In this document: in pieces, positions 7,083 to 25,196 of the stretch
Position numbering within the stretch: position 1 is the first letter of the stretch
Layout of the letters: each line of letters starts with the position of its first letter
From: a virus
IMG/VR virus record: IMGVR_UViG_3300030060_005856
Coordinates: 1-28,400 of that record
Direction: 5' to 3' (one strand)
Length of the DNA stretch: 28,400 nucleotides
Position numbers and translations under genes: made by a program
Notes under the pieces: generated by a model
Seen by the model: only the letters and a program-made list of their open reading frames with translations
Databases searched by the model: none
Told to the model about the DNA's origin: nothing

Positions 7083-7446
7083 TAAACCAAAAACAATATT
7101 TTGTGATATAGACGGAACTTTATGTCATTATCCATATTCATCAGAAATGGGTGATTACGATTTCGATAAAAAAGTCATGCGACCATTACCTGAAACCTTA
7201 AAAAAATTATGGGATTGGGATAAGGCTGGTCATATGATTATATTGACCACTGGTAGAAAAGAAGGTATGAGAGAAACAACAGAAAGACAACTAAGAGAAG
7301 CTGGTATAATTTACGATAGACTAATCATGGGAATCGGTGGTGGCACAAGAGTTTTAATTAATGATTTAAAGCCACATAGAAATGGTGATACTGCAATTGC
7401 AATAAATTTGAAACGAGATACAGGAGTTAAAGATGTCGAAATATAG
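7075..7446 (+). CDS. Small HAD-family phosphatase
   Basis: The product is 123 aa from GTG 7075. D11-I-D13-G-T-L is HAD motif I, with nucleophile D11 and acid/base D13. T58-T59-G-R61 is motif II, and 'LINDLKPHR' near residue 100 carries the acidic motif IV region. The protein has essentially no cap domain, as in small sugar-phosphate or polysaccharide-associated HAD phosphatases. It likely dephosphorylates a sugar phosphate for the adjacent nucleotidyltransferase-kinase and isomerase. It overlaps the previous gene by 8 bases and the cupin gene by 14. A truncated copy of its 5' end lies at 5047-5097. Confidence 0.8.
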   Translation: MNNKPKTIFCDIDGTLCHYPYSSEMGDYDFDKKVMRPLPETLKKLWDWDKAGHMIILTTGRKEGMRETTERQLREAGIIYDRLIMGIGGGTRVLINDLKPHRNGDTAIAINLKRDTGVKDVEI

Positions 7447-7909
7447 TCACATTGAAGATGCTTGGGTAAAAGAAGCATTGGAAGAATACAAAGATAAAAT
7501 AGATGAGAACAAATCTCATCGTTTGGACATTAGTTCATACAGAGTTGAGAAGCCATGGGGATATGAACTATGGTTAGAATTAAATGAACATTATGCTTAT
7601 AAACTAATTCACATGAACAAAGGCTACCAAAGTAGTTTACAATGGCATGAGAAAAAAGTAGAAACCAATTATGTTATTGAAGGTGAGGCTGAAGTTCTAT
7701 TGCAAAATGAAGATGGAACAATGGAATCGAGAACTTATAAAGCTGGTGATGGTTGGTGTGTTCCATTAAAGACTAAACATAGAGTTATAGCTACAACAGA
7801 TTATACTGCACTTGAATGTTCTACTGCACATCTAAACGATTGTATTAGATTCGAGGATGATTCGGATAGAGGAAGTGGTAAAATAAATACAGAGCACGAA
7901 GGAAACTAA
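7433..7909 (+). CDS. Cupin protein, type II phosphomannose-isomerase-like
   Basis: The 158-aa protein is a single-domain cupin. 'VEKPWGYELWLE' and 'LIHMNKGYQSSLQWHEKKVETNYVIEGEAEV' features (quoted by their key residues W-G, S-L-Q-W-H72, E78-x-N-Y-V-I-E-G) match the C-terminal cupin domain of bifunctional mannose-6-phosphate isomerase/GDP-mannose pyrophosphorylase. A free-standing version could isomerise a hexose or heptose phosphate. The ATG at 7433 has GGAG at 7423-7426. It ends directly before the TTG start of the fusion enzyme at 7910. Isomerase activity is inferred from family resemblance; a regulatory or binding role is possible. Confidence 0.75.
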   Translation: MSKYSHIEDAWVKEALEEYKDKIDENKSHRLDISSYRVEKPWGYELWLELNEHYAYKLIHMNKGYQSSLQWHEKKVETNYVIEGEAEVLLQNEDGTMESRTYKAGDGWCVPLKTKHRVIATTDYTALECSTAHLNDCIRFEDDSDRGSGKINTEHEGN

Positions 7910-9508
7910 TTGAATAAATTCTGTATATTAGCTGCTGGTCGTGGGACTAGAAATACAAATGTTTCTGGTCTACATAAGGCGTTATTACCATTAGAAAATA
8001 AACCTGTTATATCACATATAATAGATAAAGTAAATGGTGAAGTTGAAATTGTAATTGCTTTGGGTTATAATGCTGAACAAGTAAGAAGTTATGTTGAGTA
8101 TGTGCATAGTGATAGAAAATTAACTTTCGTTTATGTTGATAATTATGATGAACAAGGTTCTGGTCCTGGTTATAGTTTGTTGTGTTGTGAAAAAGAATTA
8201 CAAGATTCTTTTATGTATACCGCTGTAGATACTATAGTAGATGAAGATTTTTATCTTCTACCAAAAGATAAAAATTGGATTGGTGTATCAAAAATAGATA
8301 AGGAAATTTCTTTAAATTATTGTTTGGTTAGAGGCGACAAGCATCTTGATGAGTTATACTATGGTGTTGGTGATAAAGCATTTATAGGTATGTGTGGAAT
8401 CTATGATTATAAAACATTTTGGACTAAGTTGAAAATGAAGTCGGTAGTTAAAAATGAATACCAAGTAGATTCTGGTATAATAGGTTTGGATAAAATGAAT
8501 ATTATAGATTTTACATGGTACGATACAGGTAATAATAAATCGTATATGGAGACTAAAAAATCATTCCCAAACGATGTGGTTGCAAACAAAAGTGATGAGG
8601 CTATCTTCATTGATAATGGTAAAGTCATAAAGTATTTTGACAATATACAAAAGGTTAAGATGAGAGTTGACAGATTAAAATATCTAAAAAATTGTCCTGA
8701 TGTCCAAGTGATTAATGATAATATGTATGCCTACGATTATATTCGTGGTAAACTACTATCTAATATTTCAGATGAAAGTTTGATGAAAAAATTTTTAGAT
8801 GAGTGTCAATCTTCGTTATGGTTTACTCAACAACCAAGCGATACATTTTTTGAAGATTGTAAAAACATGTATGAAGTTAAAACTAAGGAAAGGATTAAAT
8901 CATTATCTGGTTCGGAACTTGATAATATTTCTGTTATAAATGGAATTAGTGTTAGACCTGTTGAAGATATGTTAGATGAAATTGATTGGAACTGGTTAAT
9001 TACTAATGGTAAACCTACACACTTTCATGGTGATTTACAACCAGAAAATATACTCTATGATGAGGATAATGATAAATTTGTATTGATAGATTGGAGACAA
9101 CAATTTGGTAGTAATTTAGAAGTAGGTGACACTTACTATGATTTAGCTAAATTATATCATGCCATACTAATAAATGGTAAATGTATTTTGAATGATATGT
9201 TTGATTATACTATAACTTCCAACACAGCAAACTTAAACTTTTATGCGAAAAGTAATTTAGTATTTTTTAACCAGATTTTTCTTGATTTTTGTCACAAAAA
9301 TAATTATATTTGGAGTAAGGTTGAGTTATTAGGTATATTACAATATTTGAATATTTGTACATTGTATGATAATTTTAAAGATGGTAAGTATGGAAATTTT
9401 TTATTTTTATATGGTAAATATTTGTTATCAAAATTTATAAGTAGAGGTGGTTATGAAAAAAACAAAGTTAATAAATTTATACAAGCAAGAGTCGGTAGAG
9501 GTATTTAA
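7910..9508 (+). CDS. Nucleotidyltransferase fused to an aminoglycoside/choline-kinase-like phosphotransferase
   Basis: This 532-aa protein has two enzyme domains. Residues 1 to about 220 form a sugar-1-phosphate or choline-phosphate nucleotidyltransferase: L7-A-A-G-R-G-T-R14 is the nucleotide loop, K23 in 'LHKALLPL' is the usual phosphate-contacting Lys, and 'DEQGSGPGYSLL' is the donor-site loop. Residues from about 230 onward form an APH/choline-kinase fold: H373-G-D375-L-Q-P-E-N380 is the catalytic loop and D394 in 'IDWR' the metal-binding Asp. One chain could phosphorylate and then activate a sugar or alcohol. The start is TTG 7910, with AAGGAAA at 7899-7905, immediately after the cupin stop. 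Its last 56 bases overlap the SIS gene. The LicA/LicC phosphocholine pathway is an analogy, not an assignment. Confidence 0.82.
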   Translation: MNKFCILAAGRGTRNTNVSGLHKALLPLENKPVISHIIDKVNGEVEIVIALGYNAEQVRSYVEYVHSDRKLTFVYVDNYDEQGSGPGYSLLCCEKELQDSFMYTAVDTIVDEDFYLLPKDKNWIGVSKIDKEISLNYCLVRGDKHLDELYYGVGDKAFIGMCGIYDYKTFWTKLKMKSVVKNEYQVDSGIIGLDKMNIIDFTWYDTGNNKSYMETKKSFPNDVVANKSDEAIFIDNGKVIKYFDNIQKVKMRVDRLKYLKNCPDVQVINDNMYAYDYIRGKLLSNISDESLMKKFLDECQSSLWFTQQPSDTFFEDCKNMYEVKTKERIKSLSGSELDNISVINGISVRPVEDMLDEIDWNWLITNGKPTHFHGDLQPENILYDEDNDKFVLIDWRQQFGSNLEVGDTYYDLAKLYHAILINGKCILNDMFDYTITSNTANLNFYAKSNLVFFNQIFLDFCHKNNYIWSKVELLGILQYLNICTLYDNFKDGKYGNFLFLYGKYLLSKFISRGGYEKNKVNKFIQARVGRGI

Positions 9509-10085
9509 CAACATACCAACACAAAAGATTGTTGAGTTTGTTGATATGGTTTTCGAGGCATATGAAAACGAACAAACAATATTTGCTTGTGGCAATGGTG
9601 GAAATGTAGCATCTGTCCAAAACTTAGTTGTAGATATGAACATGCATCCTTTCGTATCAGAAGATAAAGGAGCTCAGACTATTCCACGAAACAAATTCAA
9701 ATGTGTTAGTTTGTGTAGTGACCAAGCTAGTATTACTGGCATCGGTAATGATTTAGGGTTTAGATTTATATTTAGTGAACAACTAAAGTATCAAGGTGTT
9801 GAGGGTGACATTGTATTTGGCATGTCTGGTTCAGGTAATTCTAAGAATGTTTTAGAAGCATTTAGAGTTGCTAAAGATAGAGGTATGAAAACAATATTAG
9901 TTACAAGAAACTCAGTTAATAATTGTAATGACTTTGCTGATTTAACTATATCACTTGAAGGTACATCAGAATTTCCTGGTCAAACAGGTGGTAATAACAA
10001 TAACTTCCACTTCGAAGATATTTTGTCTAAGATAACTCATATCTCTGTGGGGTTATTAAAGGAGAAAGTACACAATGAAAATTAA
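9453..10085 (+). CDS. SIS-domain phosphosugar isomerase, GmhA-like with altered metal residues
   Basis: The product is 210 aa from ATG 9453; GAGGTGG at 9444-9450 decides this start over GTG 9447. C46-G-N-G-G50 and S125-G-S-G-N-S130 are the phosphosugar-binding loops, and 'IGNDLGFRFIFSEQL' matches GmhA (sedoheptulose-7-phosphate isomerase). By eye-alignment to E. coli GmhA, the Ser after GNGG is N51, His61 becomes N57, Glu65 becomes D61, Gln172 becomes Glu (in 'HFEDILSKITH') and His180 is kept, so the zinc site looks changed. It likely isomerises a ketose phosphate to an aldose phosphate, perhaps using the product of the adjacent transketolase. It could also be a non-isomerase SIS binding protein. 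Confidence 0.8.
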   Translation: MKKTKLINLYKQESVEVFNNIPTQKIVEFVDMVFEAYENEQTIFACGNGGNVASVQNLVVDMNMHPFVSEDKGAQTIPRNKFKCVSLCSDQASITGIGNDLGFRFIFSEQLKYQGVEGDIVFGMSGSGNSKNVLEAFRVAKDRGMKTILVTRNSVNNCNDFADLTISLEGTSEFPGQTGGNNNNFHFEDILSKITHISVGLLKEKVHNEN

Positions 10086-10851
10086 TCCAAACATACTAAG
10101 AAAGAAAGTAATAGACATGGTTGTAGCTAAACAATCAGGTCATATAGGTGGGGCTTTCTCTATGGCTGAACTAACTGCTGTACTGTATGAAGACTATGAT
10201 ATTGGTGGTAAAGATAAATTGATTTTATCTAAAGGACACGCTGTTCCAATTATATATGCTGTGTTGCACGAGTTAGGTCAGATTAGTGATGATGATTTAG
10301 ATTTATTTAGAGAAATTGATTCACCACTTCAAGGACATCCTGATAAGTTAAGATTGCCACTAATGGATGCTACAACAGGTTCATTAGGTCAAGGATTGAG
10401 TATCGCTATCGGACACTCACTTGGTAAAAAACTAAGGGATGAAGAAGGAACTGTATTTTGTGTTTTAGGTGATGGAGAATTACAAGAAGGTCAAGTGTGG
10501 GAGGCTTTGATGTATTATCCAAAAACTGATTTACATAATTTAGTATGTATTATCGATTGGAACAAAGGTCAGAATGACGGATACTCAAAAGATTTTAGTA
10601 TTATGTATGATAATCTACAAGAAAGAATATCTTCATTTGGATGGAGTTGTAATGTTATAGATGGTCATGATATTAATGCTATCAGATCTCAATTGTTAGA
10701 GGTTGGTAATGTTACACATCATATGCCACAATGTATTATATTGGATACTATTAAAGGTAAGGGAGTTTCTTTTATGGAAGATCCAAGTTGGCATTGTAAA
10801 GTTCCTACGGAAGATGAATATGAAATCGCTATGAAAGAGTTAGGAGTTTAA
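10075..10851 (+). CDS. Transketolase, N-terminal (TPP-binding) subunit
   Basis: The product is 258 aa. It has G132-D133-G134-E135 with N163 28 residues after D133-G134, the thiamine-pyrophosphate/Mg2+ motif (GDG-x26-30-N). 'KGHAVPIIYAVL', 'GHPDKLRLP' and 'ATTGSLGQGLSIAIG' are classic transketolase segments. Length and content fit the N-terminal half of split transketolases. It moves two-carbon units between sugar phosphates, together with the subunit at 10853. The ATG at 10075 has GGAGAA at 10061-10066, and it overlaps the SIS gene by 11 bases. In this setting it may make a sedoheptulose- or modified ketose phosphate for activation rather than serve central metabolism. Confidence 0.9.
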   Translation: MKINPNILRKKVIDMVVAKQSGHIGGAFSMAELTAVLYEDYDIGGKDKLILSKGHAVPIIYAVLHELGQISDDDLDLFREIDSPLQGHPDKLRLPLMDATTGSLGQGLSIAIGHSLGKKLRDEEGTVFCVLGDGELQEGQVWEALMYYPKTDLHNLVCIIDWNKGQNDGYSKDFSIMYDNLQERISSFGWSCNVIDGHDINAIRSQLLEVGNVTHHMPQCIILDTIKGKGVSFMEDPSWHCKVPTEDEYEIAMKELGV

Positions 10852-10852
10852 G

Positions 10853-11776
10853 ATGAGGGCTACAAGAGAAGCATTTGGAGAACACTTACCTGTAATGGGT
10901 GAGAAACATAATAATATAGTGGCATTAGATGCTGACTTAGGTAAGGCTACTAAGATTGCTAGTTTTGGACAAACACATCCTGATAGATTCTTTCAGATGG
11001 GTATTGCTGAGGCTAATATGATTGGAGTCGCATCTGGTATTTCTGAATATGATTATAAAGTATTTTTAGCATCATTTGGTTCATTTCTTACTGGTAGGTA
11101 TGACCAGATAAGATGTAGTATAGCATATTCTAATAGACCAGTTGTTTTGGTTGGTACTCATGTTGGTATGGCTATTGGTAAAGATGGTGTAACTCAAATG
11201 GGGTTAGAAGATGTTAGTATTATGAGAGCACTACCTAATATGAAAATATTGAATCCTGCTACATTTTCGGAGGCAATAAAGGTTATTGAATATTTGTGTG
11301 AAACAGATTTGGACTCTCCATATTATTTGAGGTTAGGTAGACAACCAGTTGAGGATATAGAAATGCCATTTGAATTTGGTAAAGGACAGATTGTGTTAGA
11401 AGGTAATGACATTACTCTATTATCTACTGGTTGTATATTAGGTGATGTTCTAAAGTCAGCTCTTATCATTGAAGAGAAAACATCTATGAGTGTAAGGGTT
11501 ATAAATATCCCAACACTAAAACCAATAGATGAAGATATAGTAGTGGATTCTGCTAAACACACCGACCACCTATTTACAATAGAGGACCACTCAATCATTG
11601 GTGGTTTAGGTAGTGCAGTTTCAGAAGTATTATCCGAAAAACATCCAACTAAAATAACTCGAATTGGACTCAATGATGTGTTTCCTGAATCAGCACCACC
11701 TGCTGACTTATACGAAAAATATGGATTGAGTTCAAATAAAATAACTGAAAGGGTGTTGAGTGAATTGGATAAATAA
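10853..11776 (+). CDS. Transketolase, C-terminal (pyrimidine-binding) subunit
   Basis: The product is 307 aa, one base after the N-terminal subunit. E53 in 'MGIAEANMIGVASG' is the conserved Glu that activates the thiamine aminopyrimidine. 'FGSFLTGRYDQIRCSIAYSN' features and 'GTHVGMAIGKDGVTQMGLEDV' are typical of the pyrimidine domain; the C-terminal Rossmann-like domain ('LLSTGCILGDVL', 'TIEDHSIIGGLGSAVSEVL') is complete. It pairs with the upstream subunit in a heteromeric transketolase of the 1-deoxyxylulose-synthase-like layout. The start ATG 10853 follows 'TTAGGAGTTTAAG', with GGAG at 10843-10846. The last 17 bases overlap the next gene. Confidence 0.9.
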   Translation: MRATREAFGEHLPVMGEKHNNIVALDADLGKATKIASFGQTHPDRFFQMGIAEANMIGVASGISEYDYKVFLASFGSFLTGRYDQIRCSIAYSNRPVVLVGTHVGMAIGKDGVTQMGLEDVSIMRALPNMKILNPATFSEAIKVIEYLCETDLDSPYYLRLGRQPVEDIEMPFEFGKGQIVLEGNDITLLSTGCILGDVLKSALIIEEKTSMSVRVINIPTLKPIDEDIVVDSAKHTDHLFTIEDHSIIGGLGSAVSEVLSEKHPTKITRIGLNDVFPESAPPADLYEKYGLSSNKITERVLSELDK

Positions 11777-13243: not shown

Positions 13244-15125
13244 AGCTATATTCATATCAGTAAGGACTGGATCATCTAGGTTACCTAATAAGTCTATTTT
13301 AAAAATAAAAGGTAAACATACTATTGAGTATGTCATAGATAGTGTAAAAAAATCAAAATATGCTGATAAGATTGTTTTATGTACGACTTTGAAGAGTGAA
13401 GATGATATTTTATATGATATTGCAAAAAAGAATGGAATTGATGTTTTTAGGGGCAGTGAACATGACAAACTCGATAGATGGTGGTGGGCTTTATTAACAT
13501 TTCAAGCTATTGAATCTGTTGTTACTGTTGATGGTGATGATTTATTTTATGACCATAAATTAGCAGACTTATGCTTTGAACAATTAGAGGATAGTGATTT
13601 TGTTAACGGTCAAGGTTTGTATAATGACACTTATGGTTTTAAAGATAATTTTTTAGAAGAAGTTATAAAAGCTAAAAAAGACCAAATTATTGAGCCACAT
13701 GAAATTGTAAACTTTTTAAAAAATAAAGATTTTAAAGTAAGTCAACTAACAGATGTGCCTCATTATTTTAAAAAACAAAATATAAGAATGACACTAGACT
13801 ATCAAGAAGATTTTGAGTTCTTTAAAAATGTGATAGAAAATTTAAATGATAATTTTACATTTAAAGATGTGTTGAATTATCTTTTAAAAAATGAGTCGGT
13901 TGTTGATATAAATTATTTTAGAGAAGAAGAATGGAAAAAAAACCAATTAGGTGTGGATAAGGGTTGGAGATTTAGAGGAAATGAAACTGATTACTTAACT
14001 AAGACTTTAGATAGTGGGTTTAGTGCTGGTGAAGATGGGACTATGGTTGAGAGAGTAGAGAGATTATTTTCAGAAAAACACAATCAAAAATATGCTATAG
14101 GTTTCAACTCAGGAACATCAACTTTACATGCTGCTCTAAATGCCTTTGGAGTTGGAGTTGGTGATGAAGTTATTGTCCCCGCATTAACACCTGCTATGTG
14201 TGGATATTCAATATGGCAAACAGGTGCAGTTCCTGTTTTTTGTGATGTCAGAGAAGATACTTTTCTTATGGATTGTAAAGATGTGGAAAATAAAATTACA
14301 CATAAAACTAAAGCTATAATGGCAGTTCACATATATGGTTTAATGTGTGATATGGATTCTATAATGAATATTGCTGATAAGTATGGATTATATGTATTAG
14401 AGGATTGTGCTCAATGTTTTTTAGCAAAAGATAATAATGGTGATATATCAGGTACTATCGGACATATAGGTAGTTGGAGTTTTGAAAATTCAAAGCATCT
14501 ATCGTGTGGTGATGGTGGGATAGTTACTACTAACGATGAAAAATTAGCAAAAAGTATGAGACAATTTGGTGGTGTAGGATTTAAAAATTTAACTGCTAGT
14601 AGTGGAAAAGTTAGAATATCAAGAGATAAGTTTCAAGATCCTAATTGGAAACGACACAATGTTATGGCTTACAATTACAGAATGCCAGAGTTATGTGGTG
14701 CTGTTGCCTTAGCTCAAACTGAAAGAATGGAAGAATTTTGTGATAAGAGAATTAAAGCTGGCAATTCGTATTTAAAAACAATACTCGATAGTAATACTGA
14801 TTTGTTGAAACCACAGAAGTCACCTGATGGTTTTATTAATTCTTATTATACATTTGGTGCTTTGTTTAATGGTGAAAAATACGGTATTGAATGGCAAACT
14901 TTTAGAAAAAAATATATTGAGTTTGGTGGCGATGGGATTTATGCTGCTTGGAAAACTCAAAACCAAGAACCTTGTTTTAAAGATAACAAAATAGGTTGGG
15001 GTGATGTTCCTATTGCTGAAAAACTACAAAAAAATTTAATGCAATTTACAACTAATCAAAAAGATGATAATGAAATAAAAGTTCAAGTAAATGCTCTTAA
15101 AAAAACATTGGAGTATTTTGATTAA
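13236..15125 (+). CDS. SpsF/KdsB-like cytidylyltransferase fused to a DegT-type PLP aminotransferase
   Basis: This 629-aa protein has two domains. Residues 1 to about 225 form a nucleotidyltransferase of the SpsF/CMP-sugar synthetase type: 'VRTGSSRLPNKSIL' (residues 9-22) is the CTP loop, and 'VFRGSEHDKLDRW' and 'VTVDGDDLFYD' follow as in that family. Residues from about 255 to 629 form a complete DegT/DnrJ/EryC1 aminotransferase, with 'FNSGTSTLHAAL', 'HIYGLMCDMDSI', 'VLEDCAQ' and the PLP-binding K420 in 'SFENSKHLSCGDGG'. One chain could thus aminate a keto-sugar and supply a CMP-type activation. It overlaps the methyltransferase by 8 bases and the SDR by 1. NeuB follows two genes later, so a CMP-nonulosonate role for the N-terminal domain is plausible but not proven. 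Confidence 0.84.
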   Translation: MVKAIFISVRTGSSRLPNKSILKIKGKHTIEYVIDSVKKSKYADKIVLCTTLKSEDDILYDIAKKNGIDVFRGSEHDKLDRWWWALLTFQAIESVVTVDGDDLFYDHKLADLCFEQLEDSDFVNGQGLYNDTYGFKDNFLEEVIKAKKDQIIEPHEIVNFLKNKDFKVSQLTDVPHYFKKQNIRMTLDYQEDFEFFKNVIENLNDNFTFKDVLNYLLKNESVVDINYFREEEWKKNQLGVDKGWRFRGNETDYLTKTLDSGFSAGEDGTMVERVERLFSEKHNQKYAIGFNSGTSTLHAALNAFGVGVGDEVIVPALTPAMCGYSIWQTGAVPVFCDVREDTFLMDCKDVENKITHKTKAIMAVHIYGLMCDMDSIMNIADKYGLYVLEDCAQCFLAKDNNGDISGTIGHIGSWSFENSKHLSCGDGGIVTTNDEKLAKSMRQFGGVGFKNLTASSGKVRISRDKFQDPNWKRHNVMAYNYRMPELCGAVALAQTERMEEFCDKRIKAGNSYLKTILDSNTDLLKPQKSPDGFINSYYTFGALFNGEKYGIEWQTFRKKYIEFGGDGIYAAWKTQNQEPCFKDNKIGWGDVPIAEKLQKNLMQFTTNQKDDNEIKVQVNALKKTLEYFD

Positions 15126-15796
15126 TGAGAGATATAATAATAACAGGTTCATCTGGTCTAATAGGTACTGAAGTTACATCTTATTTCAAAAAAACTGATA
15201 GAGTAAAAGAATGTGATTTATCACTTGGTCACGACTTAAACGATGAGTCTTTTGTAAAAGATTTTTTCAAAGAAAATAAAGCTGATTATTTAATCAATGT
15301 ATTTGCTTTAAATCATCACATAAGTAAGGATGGTGGTGAGACATTATTTGATATATCTTTAGATTCTTTTGACGATTACTTAAAGGTAAACTTAACATCT
15401 TTATTTTCTGTATGTAGAGAATTTGCTAGAAATAACAACAAAGGTTCTATTGTTAATTTTTCTTCAACATATGGTTGTGGTTCTCCAATACCAAGTATGT
15501 ATACGAATGGTGAAAAACACATTGGATATGGTGTATCTAAAGCTGGAGTAATACAATTGACTAAACATTTAGCCGTACATTTAGCTCCTAATATTAGAGT
15601 GAACTGTGTTTCTCCTGGCGGAGTTGAATTTAATCAAGATGAAGAATTTATTCAACAGTATAGTAATCACGCTCCTATGAAAAGAATGATGAGGGTTGGT
15701 GAACTAAATGGTTTGTTGAGTTTTTTATGCTCAAAGGAGTCCAGCTATATGACTGGTGAAAACTTAAAAATAGATGGGGGGTGGACATCGTGGTAA
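15125..15796 (+). CDS. Short-chain dehydrogenase/reductase near NeuB (PtmA-like)
   Basis: The product is a 223-aa classical SDR. 'TGSSGLIG' is a variant of the TGxxxGxG cofactor loop, S-S-T in 'NFSSTYG' supplies the catalytic Ser, and Y135-G-V-S-K139 is the YxxxK pair. The C-terminus 'SYMTGENLKIDGGW' is typical of SDRs. It starts at ATG 15125, sharing a base with the previous TAA. Its position between a cytidylyltransferase fusion and NeuB recalls the SDR PtmA of Campylobacter legionaminic acid loci; this is context-based inference. The G-rich end (15777-15784) also provides the ribosome site for the next gene. Confidence 0.83.
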   Translation: MRDIIITGSSGLIGTEVTSYFKKTDRVKECDLSLGHDLNDESFVKDFFKENKADYLINVFALNHHISKDGGETLFDISLDSFDDYLKVNLTSLFSVCREFARNNNKGSIVNFSSTYGCGSPIPSMYTNGEKHIGYGVSKAGVIQLTKHLAVHLAPNIRVNCVSPGGVEFNQDEEFIQQYSNHAPMKRMMRVGELNGLLSFLCSKESSYMTGENLKIDGGWTSW

Positions 15797-16632
15797 ATTT
15801 TAAAACATTAGATGATTTATATTTTATTGCCGAAATTGGTATAAATCACAATGGTGATATTGACATAACAAAAAAATTGATTGATGCTAGTTTTGCGACT
15901 TCTTGGGATTGTGTCAAGTTCCAAAAGAGAAATCCTGATGTGTGTGTGCCAGACCACCAAAAAGATGTTATAAGAGATACGCCTTGGGGTAGAATAACAT
16001 ACTTGGAATATAAACACAAAGTGGAGTTTGGTAAAGAAGAGTATGATTATATTAATGATTATTGTAAAGAAAAACCGATGGATTGGACAGTATCAGTTTG
16101 GGATATAGATAGTGTAAACTTTATATCAAACTATGATGTACCATTTATAAAGATACCATCTGCTATGTTAACTAATGATGAATTGATAGAAGCAACAGTT
16201 GGAACGAAAAAACAAATAATTTTAAGTACCGGTATGAGCACGATAGAAGAGATAGACCACGCTGTGGATGTTTTAGGAAAAAGTGACTTTACTTTATTAC
16301 ATTGTAATTCAACCTATCCAGCTCCAGAAGAAGATTTGAATTTAAATAATATAAAAATGATGCAAGATAAATATAATGTCCCAATAGGATATTCTGGTCA
16401 CGAACAAGATTTAGAGGCTTGTATGGTTGCTGTTACTTTAGGTGCTAACATAATAGAAAGACATATAACTTTAGACCATAATATGTGGGGAACAGATCAA
16501 AAATCTAGTTTGGAAGTCGTAGCTATGGATATGTTAAAAAAGAGGTGTAATAATATTCAGACAATGCTTGGTAAGTATGAAAGAACAGTATCTTCATCTG
16601 AAAAGGAAATAAGAAACAAACTAAGAGGGTAG
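15790..16632 (+). CDS. neuB: NeuB-family nonulosonic acid synthase lacking the SAF domain
   Basis: The product is 280 aa. It condenses phosphoenolpyruvate with an N-acyl hexosamine-type sugar to a nine-carbon acid. The TIM-barrel motifs are all present: E15-I-G-I-N-H-N-G22, 'VKFQKR', 'KIPSAMLTN', 'LSTGMSTIEE', 'LHCNSTYPAP', 'GYSGHE' and 'ERHITLD'. The C-terminal antifreeze-like SAF domain of typical enzymes (about 340-350 aa) is absent: the protein ends right after the barrel. I chose GTG 15790 because GGTGG (15780-15784) stands 5 bases before it; GTG 15781 is an alternative adding three residues. Whether the product is sialic, legionaminic or pseudaminic acid cannot be read. No hydrolysing 2-epimerase is seen in the window. 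Confidence 0.88.
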   Translation: MVNFKTLDDLYFIAEIGINHNGDIDITKKLIDASFATSWDCVKFQKRNPDVCVPDHQKDVIRDTPWGRITYLEYKHKVEFGKEEYDYINDYCKEKPMDWTVSVWDIDSVNFISNYDVPFIKIPSAMLTNDELIEATVGTKKQIILSTGMSTIEEIDHAVDVLGKSDFTLLHCNSTYPAPEEDLNLNNIKMMQDKYNVPIGYSGHEQDLEACMVAVTLGANIIERHITLDHNMWGTDQKSSLEVVAMDMLKKRCNNIQTMLGKYERTVSSSEKEIRNKLRG

Positions 16633-17384: not shown

Positions 17385-17612
17385 ATGAGTGAAAAGAATT
17401 TATTATCCTCGGTTGCACATGAGGGTAGATATGTTACACAAATAATTCACTTTAAAGAAGGTTATAGAAAAACTATTCATGGGATAGATACATTATCAAT
17501 AGAACAAGGGCAATTTACTAAATTTAAATGTAAGGATGGTCGTTATATAATGATAAATGATAATAATGTTTTGATGGTGGAAGTATTTTCGGAGGAAGAT
17601 AATGGAAATTAG
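17385..17612 (+). CDS. Small hypothetical protein, 75 aa
   Basis: The gene starts immediately after the preceding stop and overlaps the aminotransferase by 11 bases, so it sits inside the operon frame. It is predicted mostly beta ('RYVTQIIHFKEGYRKTIHG', 'GQFTKFKCKDGRYIMIND'), with one Cys and no transmembrane segment. I recognise no family. Its end contains GGAGG (17592-17596), the ribosome site for the next gene. Confidence 0.55.
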   Translation: MSEKNLLSSVAHEGRYVTQIIHFKEGYRKTIHGIDTLSIEQGQFTKFKCKDGRYIMINDNNVLMVEVFSEEDNGN

Positions 17613-18750
17613 AGATAAGATGTTACCGGTATTAGCTCCCAAAGGTGGGAAAGAAGAGATACAGGCTCTTCAAGAAGTCATAGAAAGTGGATGGTGGGGC
17701 AAAGGTCCTAAAGTGGCTGAATTTGAAGAGAAGTTTGCAAAAATGGTTGGTCACAAATATGCTGTGGCTGTCACAAGTGCGTCTCACGGTCAAGATTTGG
17801 TCATGAAAGCTATGGGATTCAAAGGTATTGATGTTATTAATCCAACGATATCTTTTATAGCCACAGCGATGATTCCATTATGGAATGGGTTTACTACTAA
17901 CATAGTTGATGTAAAGAGAGATACATTGTGTATAGATCCAGAAGATGTAGAAAAGTATAAGAAACCAAATAGTGAAGTTATGATAGCTGTAAATCAAGCT
18001 GGTGTCTCCGCTGATTACGAAGCTCTAAGAAAAGTATTTGGTGGGTTCATACTTGAAGATACTGCTCATAGTTGTTACACACCAGGTGCTGGACAAGGTG
18101 GTGATGTGGCAGTTTGGTCATTTCAAGCAGTCAAGACAATGCCGTGTGGTGATGGTGGAATGATTACAAGTAATGATAAAGAATTAATTGAAAAGTGTAG
18201 AGAGATGACTTGGTTTGGAGTATCATCTACTTGGAGTAGAGCTAGTGGTGCTACACCAGGATATGCTTGGGATTATCAAGTAGACATACTTGGTTACAAG
18301 TATTACATGATTGATATAGCAGCTGCTATTTGTTTAGAACAGATGAAAAAACTACCAGCTAATTTGGAGTTTCGTAGGCATGTGCAAAAAAGATATAATG
18401 AGGAACTACATCCTATATTTGAAAGACCACCACATTCAGAAACCGTACAATATTATTGTCCAAGAATACCAGAAAAAATAATAAATCCAGCACCAGATGG
18501 TAGTGGTTATAGTAGTAAGGTAACGAGAGATAATTTGATTGATTATTTAGCAGAAAAAAAAATACACACATCGGTACATTTCAAACCACTTCATATGTAC
18601 AAACCTTTATTACAAAATAGACACTATTCGGTAGCAGATACAGAATGGTTGAAGTTTATATCTTTACCAGTTCATAATAGAATGGTTGAAGAGGACATTG
18701 ATTATGTAATTTATTGGTGTAATAAGTGGGTAGAGGATAAATATTTATGA
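17602..18750 (+). CDS. DegT/DnrJ/EryC1 aminotransferase
   Basis: The product is 382 aa. It is a PLP-dependent sugar aminotransferase: 'ESGWWGKGPKVAEFEEKFA' is the family start, 'AVTSASHGQDLVMKA' the phosphate-binding region, and 'LEDTAHSC' plus K178 in 'SFQAVKTMPCGDGG' the PLP site. 'HFKPLHMYKPL' near the end is typical of the family. It probably converts an NDP-4-keto-6-deoxyhexose to an aminosugar, for instance the product of the RmlB-like enzyme or of the GDP-mannose dehydratase at the right edge (a perosamine-type route); which one cannot be decided. The ATG at 17602 has GGAGG at 17592-17596. The stop overlaps the next gene in ATGA. Confidence 0.88.
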   Translation: MEIRDKMLPVLAPKGGKEEIQALQEVIESGWWGKGPKVAEFEEKFAKMVGHKYAVAVTSASHGQDLVMKAMGFKGIDVINPTISFIATAMIPLWNGFTTNIVDVKRDTLCIDPEDVEKYKKPNSEVMIAVNQAGVSADYEALRKVFGGFILEDTAHSCYTPGAGQGGDVAVWSFQAVKTMPCGDGGMITSNDKELIEKCREMTWFGVSSTWSRASGATPGYAWDYQVDILGYKYYMIDIAAAICLEQMKKLPANLEFRRHVQKRYNEELHPIFERPPHSETVQYYCPRIPEKIINPAPDGSGYSSKVTRDNLIDYLAEKKIHTSVHFKPLHMYKPLLQNRHYSVADTEWLKFISLPVHNRMVEEDIDYVIYWCNKWVEDKYL

Positions 18751-19628
18751 TAGGTTTATTTGGTTCTAATGGTTTGGTTGGTTCACACATTGATTTTGCT
18801 GATTTTAAATTCGATAGAAAATCATGTGATTTGCATGATTTAGATAAAATCACCAAATGTATATCTGAAAACAACATAAATACAATCGTCAATTGTGCAG
18901 CATATCAAAGAAATCACAAAACAATGAGTGAAAACCAAGCAGATCACTTTCATCAAAATACATCAATTAATTTAAATGTTTACAAAGCTGGAGAATTATG
19001 TAAAGTAAAAAAAATAATATCAGTTTCATCTATAAATGCTATTCAAGGAGTTGGTGTTGTGGTTGAAAAATATTTGTGGAAAACTAATCCGTCTGATTTT
19101 TGTTATGCCGAATCTCATAAAAATAGAGTTTTACACATTCTTTCTAAATTGTATAGCGAACAGTATGGAATAAAATGTATAACGCCAATGTTGTCTAACA
19201 CTTATGGTTTAAACGTTGAAAAAAAAGATAATGGAGTAATACCCATATTAATTTGTAAGTTCATAGATTCAATTAAAAATAAAACTGACATTGAGTTAAA
19301 GGGTGACGGTAAATCTTCGAGAAACTTTATTTACGGCAAAGATGTTAACAAGGTTTTAAATTTATTATCATTGGATGATTTTTCATATACAGAACCTTTT
19401 ATAGTATCTTCTAATGAGAGTGCTTCTGTGCGAGAAATAGTTGAAATTATGGTAGACCATTTTAATTATAAGGGAAAAATCAATTGGGACACTAAAGGCT
19501 ACACATCTGATACTAAACTATGTTCTAATGATTTATTTAGAAGCCATTTTCCATCTTTTAAATTTACACGATTAGAAGATGGTATTAAAGAAACAATTAA
19601 TTATTTTATGGAGAAATATAATGTATAA
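18747..19628 (+). CDS. GDP-fucose-synthase-like epimerase/reductase with displaced catalytic Lys
   Basis: The product is 293 aa, an extended SDR resembling WcaG/GMER or RmlD. 'GLFGSNGLVGSH' is the GxxGxxG loop, 'INTIVNCAAYQRN' and 'ISVSSINA' follow, and 'GDGKSSRNFIYGKDV' matches the substrate loop of GDP-L-fucose synthase. The YxxxK motif is odd: the sequence is Y120-A-E-S-H124-K125, so the Lys is one residue late and His occupies its place. It may use the product of the GDP-mannose dehydratase at the right edge, but the altered motif leaves activity in doubt. It overlaps both neighbours (ATGA upstream, 8 bases downstream). Confidence 0.75.
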   Translation: MIGLFGSNGLVGSHIDFADFKFDRKSCDLHDLDKITKCISENNINTIVNCAAYQRNHKTMSENQADHFHQNTSINLNVYKAGELCKVKKIISVSSINAIQGVGVVVEKYLWKTNPSDFCYAESHKNRVLHILSKLYSEQYGIKCITPMLSNTYGLNVEKKDNGVIPILICKFIDSIKNKTDIELKGDGKSSRNFIYGKDVNKVLNLLSLDDFSYTEPFIVSSNESASVREIVEIMVDHFNYKGKINWDTKGYTSDTKLCSNDLFRSHFPSFKFTRLEDGIKETINYFMEKYNV

Positions 19629-20499: not shown

Positions 20500-21094
20500 C
20501 AGATTTCTACATATAGGATGTGGTCCTAACATTTTACCATCACCATTTGAAAATCTTGATGGGAGAGACTTTGATGGTGTAGACCATGTTAGTTCAGCCG
20601 ATGACCTTTCTCAATTTGACGATAATACTTTTGATATGATTTACGCATCTCATATATTAGAGCACTATCCAAGAAACGATGTGGAAAGAGTTCTTAAAGA
20701 ATGGGTTAGAGTTGTTAAGGTAGATGGTATAGTCAGAATTTCAGTTCCATCATTTAAAAGTGCTCTTGAAATATATGACAAGACAGATAAATTAGAAAAT
20801 GTTTTAGGTCCTTTAGTTGGTGGTCAAACATATGATTTTGAATTTCATTATTGTTTGTTTGATGAAAGAACTTTAACCGCATTAATGAAAATATGTGGAC
20901 TAACTGCTATTCATCCTTGGTTGTATACGAGAACACGACACTCTGATTATTGGGATTTTTCACAAGCTGTAACACATGGTATTCAAGTTTCTTTAAATTT
21001 AGAAGGTAGAAAAAGACAAACAGCATTGGATGACGGTCATAATTATTTTGAAACAAAAAAAGATAAAATTAAACAAGGGATTGAATATGTCTAA
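20492..21094 (+). CDS. SAM-dependent methyltransferase (Methyltransf_11-like)
   Basis: The product is 200 aa. 'RFLHIGCGPNILP' carries motif I (H-I-G-C-G at residues 7-11), 'FDMIYASHILEHYPRNDVERVLKEWVRV'-type text follows, with the E-H of 'LEH', and 'DGIVRISVPSF' is motif III. The arrangement is typical of small methyltransferases in O-antigen clusters. It lies between two paralogous glycosyltransferases and overlaps each by 8 bases. It may cap or methylate the sugar they add; this is inference. Confidence 0.8.
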   Translation: MSNRFLHIGCGPNILPSPFENLDGRDFDGVDHVSSADDLSQFDDNTFDMIYASHILEHYPRNDVERVLKEWVRVVKVDGIVRISVPSFKSALEIYDKTDKLENVLGPLVGGQTYDFEFHYCLFDERTLTALMKICGLTAIHPWLYTRTRHSDYWDFSQAVTHGIQVSLNLEGRKRQTALDDGHNYFETKKDKIKQGIEYV

Positions 21095-21878
21095 CATTGA
21101 TTTTATTACGGTAAATTGGAAAACTCCAGATCTAGTAAAAACTGTATTGGAAAGTATAGAAAAATTTGTCAAGATACCATATAAATTTTATGTGGTTAAC
21201 AATGGTGATGTTCGTGATATGGATGTATTAAATGAATTGTTTAAAGATAATGATAATGTCCATATCGTGAAGGGAGTTGAACAATTACCTGATAGTTCTA
21301 TTCCTGGATTAGAAAAGGACATAGAAGATCCTTGGATACACACAAAACATGATAGAAGAAAAGTTCATTTAGCAAGTTATTCACTTGCAGAAGGTCTTAA
21401 AATAGGTTTACTTGCTGGAAAGAGTAAGTATGTCAGTTTTATACAAACCGATGTTGTGTTTTTAAATGAGTGGACAGATGATATATTACCGATGTTAGAA
21501 GAAAACGAATTTGTATGTTATGCTTGGAGACATGATATTGACCAAGCAAATTTACCACAATGGTCGGTAATGAAACGATCAATATTTGATTCCGATTACT
21601 TGTTTGAAAAAGGTGATTTGTACCCTAATATTCATTACAAAGATACTTTAGGATTATTGTCATTATGGGCAAGAGAGAAAAATAAAAAGTTTTATATTTG
21701 TGAAAATAGTTTAAACCAAAGTGAATTAAAAAAATATCATATTTTAGATTTACCACACGGAGAACAAGGTTGGATAAATGATAAACCTTTTGTGTATCAT
21801 TATGGTAGGGGAACAACAAGAGGTGATGACTTAAAAGACTTGTGGATAAAAACAATAACGCAATATTTACGAGCTTGA
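21087..21878 (+). CDS. GT-A-like glycosyltransferase paralogue with altered DxD
   Basis: The product is 263 aa from ATG 21087 (AAGGGA at 21074-21079), rather than the longer frame from 21030. It aligns with the 19621 protein: 'FITVNWKTPDLVKTVLESI', 'YVVNNGD', 'FLNEWTDDILPMLEE' and 'EQGWINDKPFVYHYGRG'. At the metal motif it reads I-Q-T-D122 where the paralogue has M-D-Q-D, so the first Asp is replaced by Gln. It may still be active with one Asp or have changed function. The TGA stop overlaps the likely TTG start of the next gene. Confidence 0.68.
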   Translation: MSNIDFITVNWKTPDLVKTVLESIEKFVKIPYKFYVVNNGDVRDMDVLNELFKDNDNVHIVKGVEQLPDSSIPGLEKDIEDPWIHTKHDRRKVHLASYSLAEGLKIGLLAGKSKYVSFIQTDVVFLNEWTDDILPMLEENEFVCYAWRHDIDQANLPQWSVMKRSIFDSDYLFEKGDLYPNIHYKDTLGLLSLWAREKNKKFYICENSLNQSELKKYHILDLPHGEQGWINDKPFVYHYGRGTTRGDDLKDLWIKTITQYLRA

Positions 21879-23422
21879 TAAAATTTTTAGGACATGCGTG
21901 TATTTACATAAAGAGTAATTATGTTTCAATAGTTACTGATCCTTGGTTCTCAAAGACTGGTGCGTTTTTACATAATTGGCATCAATTTCCTGATAATAGT
22001 CAAATTGATATGACATGGAAAGATGAGTTAGACTTTGTTTGTATTTCACATGAACACCAAGACCACTTCGATCCACTATGGTTGAAAACACTAAATGATA
22101 AAGTAAAAGTAATAATTCCAAAATTCAGAAACCGAAGATTTTATAATCTAATATCAGATGCCATAGATAATGAAATAATAGAAGTTCCGACCAAAAAAAC
22201 AATCGACCTAAAAGGGATTCAGTATACACCAATTATTTGCACACCAGGTTGGGATGATGCGTGTTTGATTTTTAAAACCGACTCCGAAGTTATAGTAAAT
22301 GCGAATGATATGAATTTGTCAACTGATGATAAAAAGTGGATAAATAATAATTTTGATAATGTGGATTACTTATTTTTTCAAGTAGCAGGCGCCTCATGGC
22401 ATCCACATTCTTATGAGTATTCGGATGAGGAACAAAGAAGGATTAGACAAAGTAAGATAAAATCATATTTGAAAAAAGCTGAAAATACGGTCAAGGCTTT
22501 GAATGCTGATATTTCGATTCCTTGTGCAGGTCCTCCATGTTTCTTGGATGAAGAATTTTTTCATTTAAATTTTATTGAAGATTCAATTTTCATGACCGGT
22601 GATTTTATTTATGAAAAACTTAGTTCAAAACTAAATAATCAAATATTATTGGTTACACCAGGCGATGAGATTACAAAAGACAATTGTGAATTAATATCTG
22701 AAAATAATTTGAAAAAGGAGTTTTATTCTGACAAGAGAAATTATTTAAAAAAATATAAAGACAGAAGAACAAAGATAATAAAAGAAAGTATGGAAAAAAT
22801 TTCTGAGCCAACTCAAACTAGTTTGTTGACAGATTGTAAAAATTATTTTGAACCATTAATAGAATCAAATAAATTTTTTAGAGAAAATAGTAAAGGTAAG
22901 TTATTGATAAATGTTTTCGGTTCTATTAGAGAACAAATATTAATTGACTTTTCGAAAGTTAGTAATGGTGTTAGTCAACATCACACGACTCAGGCTTTAT
23001 GGTCTGAGCAATATTGGTATAAGTTCGATATAGATGCTAAATATTTAAACTTAATTTTTAAAAAAGAATTATTTTGGGAAGATTTGTTTTTAAGTTTTAG
23101 ATTTAAAGTCTTTCGAAAGCCTGATGAATTTGACCAACTATTAATCAATTTCTTAAAATTTGCTGACGAGGACTGTTTTCGATATTTGGAGAAACATCAT
23201 AAATTGATGGAAAGGGATAAAAAACTTCAAGAAACATTCATTAAAGAAATCAATGGTCAGAGGCTAGAGATTCAAAGGTATTGTCCTCATGCACTAGGTG
23301 ATTTATCTAACGGAAGAATTGAAGGTGAAAATCTTTATTGTCCTCATCATGACTGGTGCTTTTCTTTAAAAAGTGGAAAGGGTATAGGAAATAAATTAAA
23401 CATAAAAATAAAAAATGCTTGA
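21875..23422 (+). CDS. Metallo-beta-lactamase/Rieske protein resembling CMP-Neu5Ac hydroxylase (CMAH)
   Basis: The product is 515 aa from TTG 21875, which overlaps the previous TGA (TTGA) and gives M-I-K-F-L-G-H-A, the usual start of UlaG/CMAH-type folds; GTG 21842 would add 11 residues. The metal site H59-E-H61-Q-D63-H64 matches HxHxDH. 'VTDPWFSKTGAF', 'GASWHPHSYEYSDEEQR' and 'LFWEDLFLSFRFKVFRKPDEFDQ' parallel segments of vertebrate CMAH in the same order. At the C-terminus C470-P-H472-x16-C489-P-H-H492 is an intact Rieske 2Fe-2S motif (CxH...CxxH). In vertebrate CMAH the Rieske domain precedes the hydrolase-like domain; here it follows it. It could be a monooxygenase acting on the nonulosonate made by the NeuB-family enzyme. 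Substrate is inference. Confidence 0.78.
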   Translation: MIKFLGHACIYIKSNYVSIVTDPWFSKTGAFLHNWHQFPDNSQIDMTWKDELDFVCISHEHQDHFDPLWLKTLNDKVKVIIPKFRNRRFYNLISDAIDNEIIEVPTKKTIDLKGIQYTPIICTPGWDDACLIFKTDSEVIVNANDMNLSTDDKKWINNNFDNVDYLFFQVAGASWHPHSYEYSDEEQRRIRQSKIKSYLKKAENTVKALNADISIPCAGPPCFLDEEFFHLNFIEDSIFMTGDFIYEKLSSKLNNQILLVTPGDEITKDNCELISENNLKKEFYSDKRNYLKKYKDRRTKIIKESMEKISEPTQTSLLTDCKNYFEPLIESNKFFRENSKGKLLINVFGSIREQILIDFSKVSNGVSQHHTTQALWSEQYWYKFDIDAKYLNLIFKKELFWEDLFLSFRFKVFRKPDEFDQLLINFLKFADEDCFRYLEKHHKLMERDKKLQETFIKEINGQRLEIQRYCPHALGDLSNGRIEGENLYCPHHDWCFSLKSGKGIGNKLNIKIKNA

Positions 23423-23475: not shown

Positions 23476-24288
23476 ATGAAAAATGTTGTATTCCTAATAG
23501 CAGCAGCAAGTCAACATGAATACTTAAATAAAAAACATGGTGGATTTAAATACTTTAAATATTCAATCCCATCTTGGGAGTATTGGTGTGAAAAAAACAA
23601 TGTTGAACTTGTAATTTATGACACGCCTTCTGATGATGAACATGTTAAACATAAGATAACTTGGCAAAGATGGTTTGATTTATTTGACCAATTAGATAGA
23701 ACTAAAATAGATTATAATAAGATAGCATTAATAGATGCTTGTACAATCATTAGATGGGATACGCCAAACTTTTTTGATTTCGTTAATAATGGCGAGGTAA
23801 ATTTATTTAGGTCACTTGAAAATATTAGGTGGGTAAATGAAGGTGTTACAGGTTATGAGGAATTTTTTAAAAATCATTATTCAAATTTTAGATTTGATTT
23901 AAAAAAATATTCTAGTTGTGGGTGGCAGATATTTGATAAGGAACACAAAGCTTTTTTAGAAAAACTAAAAAGTTTTTATTATGATAATTATGACGATATA
24001 ATGATATTACAAAATGATAAAGTAAAACGAGGAACAGATCAACCGGTTTATAACTATCTATTACAAATAGAAAATGTCAATGTCGTTCATAAATTACCAC
24101 CATCTTATTACTTAAATCATTTACATAGGTTTGATTGGCTAAGTCACAACTGGCAACTCAAACAAGACGAAACACCTTTTTTTATAAAACATGGTTACAT
24201 ATGGTTTTATAGTGGTTTTCCACAAAGGGGTGGTAGGGAAGATATGATGAGACAAACTTGGGATGCAATAAAAGGAATGTATATATGA
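23476..24288 (+). CDS. Putative GT-A glycosyltransferase (paralogue of the gene at 25193), altered DxD
   Basis: The product is 270 aa. Segments shared with the protein at 25193 include 'SWEYWCEKNNVELVIYD', 'KITWQRW', 'NFFDF', 'GWQIFDKEHKAFLEKL' and 'GTDQPVYNYLL', so the two are duplicates that have diverged. At the metal motif it reads D87-A-C89 where the paralogue has D-A-D. It is expected to be a nucleotide-sugar transferase of the GT8-like superfamily, but loss of the second Asp makes activity uncertain. It follows the AT-motif gap and has no strong Shine-Dalgarno. Confidence 0.62.
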   Translation: MKNVVFLIAAASQHEYLNKKHGGFKYFKYSIPSWEYWCEKNNVELVIYDTPSDDEHVKHKITWQRWFDLFDQLDRTKIDYNKIALIDACTIIRWDTPNFFDFVNNGEVNLFRSLENIRWVNEGVTGYEEFFKNHYSNFRFDLKKYSSCGWQIFDKEHKAFLEKLKSFYYDNYDDIMILQNDKVKRGTDQPVYNYLLQIENVNVVHKLPPSYYLNHLHRFDWLSHNWQLKQDETPFFIKHGYIWFYSGFPQRGGREDMMRQTWDAIKGMYI

Positions 24289-25196
24289 AAGCCTTAGTTA
24301 CAGGTGGTGTTGGATTTGTAGGCACTAACTTAATAAAAAGATTAATGAAAGACGGATATGAGGTCATTTCAGTAGATAATTACTCCACAGGTAAGAAAGA
24401 GAATGAACAAAAAGGTTGTCAATATTATGACAAAGACTTATCAGATAGTATTTGGTGGGCTCTATGGGATGAGGACGAATGTGATACTACCTGTGATTGT
24501 CAAATCGAACCGGTTGATATAATATTCCATCTTGCTGCACTTCCAAGAATAGTTCCATCTTTTGAAAAACCAGTTGATACATTTAAATCAGGTCCGATGA
24601 CAACAATAAATGTTTTAGAGTGGGCTAGACATTGGGAGACACCTGTGATTTATGCTGGTTCTTCTTCTGTAACTGGTGATGTTTACGCAAACCCTTATAC
24701 ATTTACTAAGTGGCAGAATGAACATTTATTGAATTTATACAATAAGATATACGACTTACCAACTTCTGTATGTAGGTTTTACAATGTTTATGGTGAACAT
24801 CAAGCAACAGAGGGTGCTTACTGCAATGTGTTAGGTATTTTTGAAAGGTTGTATGAAGAAGGAAAAGCTCTAACAGTTACAGGTGATGGAGAACAACGAA
24901 GGGATTTTACATATGTTGGTGATATTGTAGATGGATTAGTTAGATGTGGAGAAGCTCATTTAGATGTTTGGGGCAATGGTGATGTAAATGGGCAATCATT
25001 TGAGTTGGGTAACGGTAAGAATTATTCTATTCTTGATTTAGTAGATGCTTTTGGAGAGACAGAAGTTGAGTATATACCAGCAAGACCTGGTGAAATGAGA
25101 GAAACATTAAATGAAGATACAAAAGCTAGGGATGTGTTAGGTTGGAAACCAAAAGGTGACATAATAAAGTTCATTAAAGACAAAATTGTAAGATGA
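24285..25196 (+). CDS. NAD-dependent epimerase (GalE/WbpP-like) with a Cys cluster
   Basis: The product is 303 aa from ATG 24285, with AAGGAA at 24271-24276. G7-G-V-G-F-V-G13 binds NAD, S-S-S-V supplies the catalytic Ser, and Y138-T-F-T-K142 is YxxxK. 'LPRIVPSFEKP' and 'GDGEQRRDFTYVGDIV' match UDP-hexose 4-epimerases of the GalE/WbpP type. An insertion between strands holds C66-x3-C70-x-C72, with C45 nearby, which is unusual for the family. It likely epimerises a UDP-hexose(NAc). It stands between two paralogous glycosyltransferases with ATGA overlaps on both sides. Confidence 0.83.
   Translation: MKALVTGGVGFVGTNLIKRLMKDGYEVISVDNYSTGKKENEQKGCQYYDKDLSDSIWWALWDEDECDTTCDCQIEPVDIIFHLAALPRIVPSFEKPVDTFKSGPMTTINVLEWARHWETPVIYAGSSSVTGDVYANPYTFTKWQNEHLLNLYNKIYDLPTSVCRFYNVYGEHQATEGAYCNVLGIFERLYEEGKALTVTGDGEQRRDFTYVGDIVDGLVRCGEAHLDVWGNGDVNGQSFELGNGKNYSILDLVDAFGETEVEYIPARPGEMRETLNEDTKARDVLGWKPKGDIIKFIKDKIVR

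Follow-up and report, generated by a model that had tools for sequence, protein, structure and literature searches.

A T4-like marine phage encodes a predicted NamH/CMAH-family sugar N-acyl hydroxylase linked to nonulosonate genes

Vertebrate CMAH carries its Rieske domain at the N-terminus. In mycobacterial NamH, an N-terminal UlaG-type domain precedes a C-terminal Rieske domain (PMC10050696), and the enzyme turns N-acetyl- into N-glycolyl-muramic acid (PMC10050696; PMC6481270). CMAH is a published distant homologue of NamH-type genes, and both enzymes are described as monooxygenases producing N-glycolyl groups (PMC6481270). Here we analyse P0001, a 515-aa phage protein that we consider likely to belong to the NamH/CMAH family and to hydroxylate sugar N-acyl groups with O2, a judgement that covers enzyme class and reaction type, not a nonulosonate (NulO) substrate. 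It is best called a NamH-family sugar N-acyl hydroxylase with a putative substrate.

The window—the whole stretch of DNA analysed, 28,400 nucleotides long—comprises bases 1–28400 of an IMG/VR record of 37,034 bases. Immediately after it, a nucleotide-sugar epimerase gene is broken by a 10-N assembly gap (G000 28401–28410; L002 1402–1411). Beyond the gap lie genes for an HNH endonuclease, a peptide deformylase, and proteins of the MazG-like and UV-endonuclease types, and the gap-free contig G001 joins homologues of genes from either side. A relative with the same glycosyltransferase backbone, G005, encodes a polymerase, clamp, clamp loader, helicase, UvsX and ssDNA-binding protein, i.e. a T4-like replication set. 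The record thus derives from a marine phage of the T4-like kind, confirming the hydroxylase gene as virus-borne, and the T4-like gene set points to a bacterium as host. The nearest named phage with such an island, Flavobacterium phage immuto (Immutovirus), has a comparable locus with genes for glycosyltransferases, aminotransferases and nucleotide sugars, in which a flanking glycosyltransferase shows 48% identity, but its island contains no NamH-like hydroxylase gene. As a separate observation, a phage peptide deformylase (L002 8045–8653) is fused to a C-terminal SecC-like metal-binding motif.

Table 1. Features of the hydroxylase gene and of the sugar island in the window.
Feature	Position	Strand	Basis or remark
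CMP-NulO synthetase-like (NeuA/KdsB type) fused to LegC-family aminotransferase, 629 aa	13236..15125	+	
SDR oxidoreductase of the NulO gene set	15125..15796	+	Accompanies NeuB and NeuA-DegT in L200 and L199
NeuB-family synthase, 283 aa, divergent, short	15781..16632	+	PF03102, E 2.2e-72
Probable CMP-NulO glycosyltransferase, CstII (GT42)-like, 229 aa	16695..17384	+	Predicted fold
DegT/DnrJ-type sugar aminotransferase	17602..18750	+	
NAD-dependent sugar epimerase/reductase	18747..19628	+	
Glycosyltransferase-like gene directly upstream of the hydroxylase	21030..21878	+	Stop overlaps hydroxylase start (TTGA)
NamH/CMAH-family MBL-SCP2-Rieske hydroxylase (predicted), P0001, 515 aa	21875..23422	+	TTG start at 21875
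HxHxDH metal motif (H59, H61, D63, H64)	22049..22066	+	Translation; invariant in all aligned family members, distant ones included
SCP2-like domain, Rv3818 (NamH) type, residues 317-441	22823..23197	+	PF25451, E 6.8e-10
Rieske [2Fe-2S] motif CPH-x16-CPHH (C470, H472, C489, H492)	23282..23350	+	PF00355
Glycosyltransferase-like protein, 270 aa; usually follows the hydroxylase	23476..24288	+	
Nucleotide-sugar epimerase/dehydratase, common to G001	24258..25196	+	

Residues of P0001 are numbered from the TTG at 21875 as residue 1. This start is plausible because it overlaps the stop of the upstream gene at a point where the 79%-identical homologue (phage contig L003) reads ATGA; an alternative GTG at 21842 would yield 526 aa. 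Pfam matches to the MBL (residues 2–80, E 1.6e-9), SCP2 and Rieske domains (residues 456–505 of 515, E 4.7e-8) all exceeded the gathering cut-offs. The HxHxDH site and the intact C-terminal Rieske motif reported in the initial annotation are encoded at precisely the residues it gave, and the MBL/Rieske hydroxylase architecture proposed there is supported by the Pfam domains and conserved ligands: across the aligned full-length relatives, all four Rieske ligands, the metal ligands, D128, N144 and D145 are kept. The neighbour of D128, D127, is a clade-specific acidic residue. The two motifs never arose jointly in 100,000 shuffles of P0001, and the dN/dS ratio against the 79%-identical homologue was ~0.11/1.34 = 0.08 (Nei-Gojobori). 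P0001 is a gene under purifying selection, not a chance reading frame.

Loss of the gene was nevertheless encountered in one lineage. In G516 and G517, only an internally deleted, frameshifted piece of the hydroxylase gene is left, still in its usual place with its neighbours unchanged (L200 13229–13500 in G516), indicating that the gene is dispensable. That P0001 might likewise be an inactive, decaying passenger in this phage is scarcely credible, given a full-length ORF in both G000 and G001, ligands that are all intact and the low dN/dS ratio. CMAH has been lost in the human lineage, and the loss in G516/G517 forms a phage parallel to it.

Over its full length, P0001 is colinear with actinobacterial (Nocardia) NamH-type proteins, with the same domain order and 27–28% identity. 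Its UlaG-type MBL domain with HxHxDH, its Rv3818-type SCP2 domain and its C-terminal Rieske domain, ligands included, all match NamH (Rv3818). The initial annotation had described a CMAH-like protein with inverted domain order. The order is indeed inverted with respect to CMAH, compared here by description only, whose Rieske domain is N-terminal. As a novelty, however, it had to be rejected, since MBL-SCP2-Rieske is the standard order of NamH (Pfam, alignment, PMC10050696), and by architecture P0001 is of the NamH rather than the CMAH type. What it has in common with CMAH are MBL and Rieske domains and, at the gene level, linkage to NulO synthesis and CMP activation (its island also holds genes for NeuB, NeuA and a CstII-like protein); a NulO substrate would also be shared if our best reading holds, whereas the electron donor of P0001 would need to come from the bacterial host. 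A non-systematic search recognised no CMAH-type proteins with an N-terminal Rieske domain among the fetched Thermoproteota and Cyanobacteria matches, and no CMAH came up in the PDB searches.

In a maximum-likelihood tree of 44 proteins, P0001 fell into a nine-member clade with support of 100/100, comprising five phage lineages (the window, L003, L093, L091 and L207), two Nitrosopumilaceae and two Yinghuangia; a second tree gave the same picture. The initial annotation had raised the question of whether C-terminal-Rieske homologues form a clade, and P0001 does group in one, separately from the 20-member NamH branch with Mycobacterium and Nocardia (100/98). Within the P0001 clade, a phage-only sub-clade was weakly supported (83/61), and the viral label requires at least four changes on the tree. 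P0001 belongs to a new branch of the NamH/CMAH family, whose members come from phages, archaea and actinobacteria.

This placement bears on whether P0001 is simply a true NamH, converting host UDP-MurNAc to UDP-MurNGlyc and thereby altering the host wall during infection. We regard this as highly improbable. The common architecture, the full-length identity to actinobacterial NamH and the N-glycolyl muramic acid that NamH yields (PMC10050696; PMC6481270) would all accord with it, but P0001 lies outside the NamH branch, in a fully supported clade that includes archaea, and its gene sits within a phage glycan island beside NulO genes and is absent from same-backbone phages without NulO genes. 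The archaea nearest to P0001 are expected to lack murein, and MurNAc is therefore not the general substrate of the clade. P0001 is a NamH-family protein, yet not NamH.

Full-length relatives are rare in cellular genomes. They were found in 4 of 244 cyanobacterial genomes, in 4 of 200 from the Nitrosarchaeum family and, as a single relative, among 299 sampled Pseudomonadota genomes; 250 Thermoproteota genomes yielded one full-length relative and one split form. No P0001/NamH-like homologue was detected among 50,697 GenBank phage records, and matches on plasmids were solely to actinobacterial NamH-type and haloarchaeal MBL proteins. Two large viral records (163 and 181 kb) each harbor a distant NamH-family gene of 26–27% identity (L209 9995–11440 and L210 9995–11383); these group with an Embleya protein, and the records contain no NeuB and no recognised sugar genes nearby.

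The AlphaFold model of P0001 (pLDDT 84.6, pTM 0.85) found its best PDB fold match in CmlA, closely followed by FrsH, both of which are diiron oxygenases with an MBL fold; no full-architecture match was present in a library of viral structures. Profile search identified the HxHxDH of P0001 as the same motif as in CmlA and FrsH, so that by fold and profile these are the nearest characterised enzymes of known reaction type to its MBL domain. The shared features are the MBL fold and HxHxDH with carboxylate ligands, but the match covers the MBL part only. In CmlA and FrsH this part sits after ~250 other residues, while in P0001 it begins at residue 2; the CmlA type has an N-terminal domain ahead of the MBL and no Rieske domain, and P0001, which has a Rieske domain, fits neither feature. 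The profile alignment gave no confident placement for an equivalent of CmlA E377. We also considered a Rieske non-heme oxygenase alpha subunit and ruled it out, as the catalytic part of P0001 is an MBL and Pfam identified no mononuclear-iron catalytic domain of that type.

CmlA and FrsH act on amino acids bound to a peptide synthetase. As such enzymes do, P0001 might hydroxylate a target other than a sugar N-acyl group, e.g. a methyl branch, a phosphonate or a peptide residue. This would fit the high fold ranking of CmlA, a beta-hydroxylase, and of FrsH, a monooxygenase, as well as the distant split MBL/Rieske pair in an archaeal phosphonate cluster (L149). We judge it unlikely, however, as the CmlA/FrsH match is restricted to the MBL part of the profile, sequence and architecture indicate NamH, and the genomic context consists of sugar-nucleotide genes. 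The split pair itself, from Thermoproteota genome G117 (L149 9049–10670), consists of an MBL-SCP2 gene and a separate gene for a 98-aa Rieske protein; it adjoins a PEP mutase gene and genes resembling phosphonopyruvate decarboxylase, and is possibly a hydroxylase in an archaeal phosphonate cluster.

Hydroxylation of an N-acetyl group by a Rieske-fed diiron site is the economical reading, because it unites the likeness to CmlA/FrsH with the description of NamH and CMAH as monooxygenases (PMC6481270). A host reductase would supply electrons, which the Rieske [2Fe-2S] domain would relay to a pair of metals, probably iron, in the MBL domain, liganded by H59, H61, D63, H64, D145 and probably D128. 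At this pair, O2 would be activated and one of its atoms inserted into the N-acetyl methyl group (to CH2OH) of a nucleotide-activated amino sugar, giving an N-glycolyl group. In this scheme we infer diiron chemistry, hydroxylation and the N-acetyl target; what the analysis itself shows is the architecture and its conservation, purifying selection, a predicted fold, the place of P0001 in the tree and its co-occurrence with NulO genes.

Upstream of the hydroxylase, the window encodes a candidate NulO pathway (Table 1). The NeuB-family gene, placed ~6 kb upstream by the initial annotation, was located 5.2–6.1 kb away; its product scored 239.5 of 399.65 bits in NCBIfam, falling under the NeuB and PseI equivalog cut-offs. 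Fusion of NeuA- and LegC-type domains recurs in several phage contigs, and the two are separate genes in others (L093, L199). The 229-aa protein had no Pfam match, but its AlphaFold model (pLDDT 77.5) found CstII (1ro7) as the top PDB fold match (prob 1.00, E 2.1e-3, TM ~0.5). With moderate confidence, we assign it to the CstII-like sialyltransferase type; it is kept in the NulO islands of G000, G001, G516, G538 and G1002. Pfam revealed neither an N-acyltransferase nor a dedicated reductase in the window, a point against our best reading. At 7075–11776, beside the NulO genes, lie genes for a HAD phosphatase, a cupin, a nucleotidyltransferase-kinase fusion, a GmhA-like SIS isomerase and a split transketolase, a heptose-like module suggesting that an unusual sugar of the heptose type is also among the products of the phage.

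Linkage to nonulosonate genes, which the initial annotation proposed as a comparison to make, recurs across independent phage lineages: rather than never being linked to such genes, phages of the P0001 clade all have NulO genes (G000; G001/G509; G003; G005; G1002). NulO pathways and gene positions differ among them. In G001, flanks are ~61–93% and the hydroxylase 79% identical to the window, but the NulO pathway is a different one: its NeuB shows only 28% identity, and NeuA is joined by a LegB/PseB-type dehydratase and an epimerase of the NeuC type. Downstream of the hydroxylase, G005 and G1002 have a gene for a glycosyltransferase of the 270-aa type and then, directly or one gene later, NeuA. 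In G003, hydroxylase and NulO genes lie ~7 kb apart, across the backbone on its other side, so that the link goes beyond position alone.

In a set of records retrieved through a backbone gene, all of them fragments, the hydroxylase or its remnant was present in 7 of 15 NulO-positive and 0 of 17 NulO-negative same-backbone records (p 0.002). Removal of near-copies left 4–5 of 8 versus 0 of 8 (p 0.04–0.013). As records with NulO genes are also, judged by backbone identity, the closer relatives of the window, this confounded co-occurrence is support for, not proof of, a link; many NulO-positive phages have no hydroxylase gene. We rejected the idea that the hydroxylase is specifically paired with the 270-aa glycosyltransferase downstream, since the gene for the latter occurs without a hydroxylase in many phages. 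Phage G538 (L199 4953–6251) encodes an MBL protein related to P0001 with no recognised Rieske domain beside WbpB/WbpD-like genes and a NulO cluster.

In cellular genomes, family members keep more varied company. Archaeon G925 encodes one, from a different branch, ~50 bp from a NeuC-like gene, which is followed by a NeuB cut by the contig end, and a WbpD-like acyltransferase lies on the other side. The non-NamH relatives of Cyanobacteria overlap or adjoin WbpB/WbpE- or PglD/PglE-type genes, and in Embleya both types lie near the family member. No Wbp/Pgl-type neighbours were seen within ~10 kb of the NamH-clade loci sampled. These observations point to the wider NamH-related family acting on nucleotide-linked N-acyl amino sugars.

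They also raise the possibility, to which we give substantial though minority weight, that P0001 performs the same chemistry on the N-acetyl or another N-acyl group, but in an amino or diamino sugar that is made by the same island and linked to UDP, GDP or dTDP, its co-occurrence with NulO genes reflecting only that both belong to complex phage glycans. Relatives at four loci (L146, L147, L148 and L029) adjoin WbpB/WbpD/WbpE- or PglD/PglE-type diamino-sugar genes, and the window itself contains a second DegT aminotransferase and several epimerases. Moreover, both Yinghuangia genomes and archaeon G848, all with members of the P0001 clade, contain no NeuB, so that NulO is an unlikely substrate there. 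Against an amino- or diamino-sugar substrate, a dedicated WbpD/PglD-type N-acyltransferase was not recognised in the window, the gene tracks NulO genes in phages over two different NulO pathways, and the neighbouring glycosyltransferase genes are widespread without it.

The initial annotation had suggested a CMP-activated nonulosonate as substrate. The recurrent NulO linkage in phages favors this proposal, the NeuB-free clade members and the sister branches in UDP-diamino-sugar clusters weigh against it, and it stands as plausible. What we infer of substrate identity and biological role is accordingly graded: we put first, as the single most likely substrate though short of an even chance, the NulO (free or CMP-activated) that the NeuB and NeuA enzymes of the phage would make, another NDP-amino sugar second, and leave the remainder to other targets. 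Tentatively, and with the same reserve, P0001 may be a viral counterpart of CMAH with NamH-type architecture: the phage would make a CMP-nonulosonate and hydroxylate its N-acetyl group to give an N-glycolyl NulO, which the CstII-like transferase would go on to attach to a glycan of the phage or of the host surface.

According to a 2019 review, the N-glycolyl literature essentially covers either Neu5Gc or N-glycolylmuramic acid (PMC6481270). The non-NamH clade and its relatives in NeuB/NeuC and diamino-sugar clusters predict further N-glycolyl sugars, some of them virus-made. If the reading of P0001 is true, phage glycans would be decorated in a novel way, and P0001 would belong to a broader microbial family, as yet unrecognised, whose members make N-glycolyl sugars other than that of MurNAc. 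The family also supplies bacterial and archaeal relatives for studies of the CMAH/NamH mechanism. Viruses may thus make a kind of hydroxylated sugar so far met only in the sialic acid of animals and in certain bacterial cell walls.
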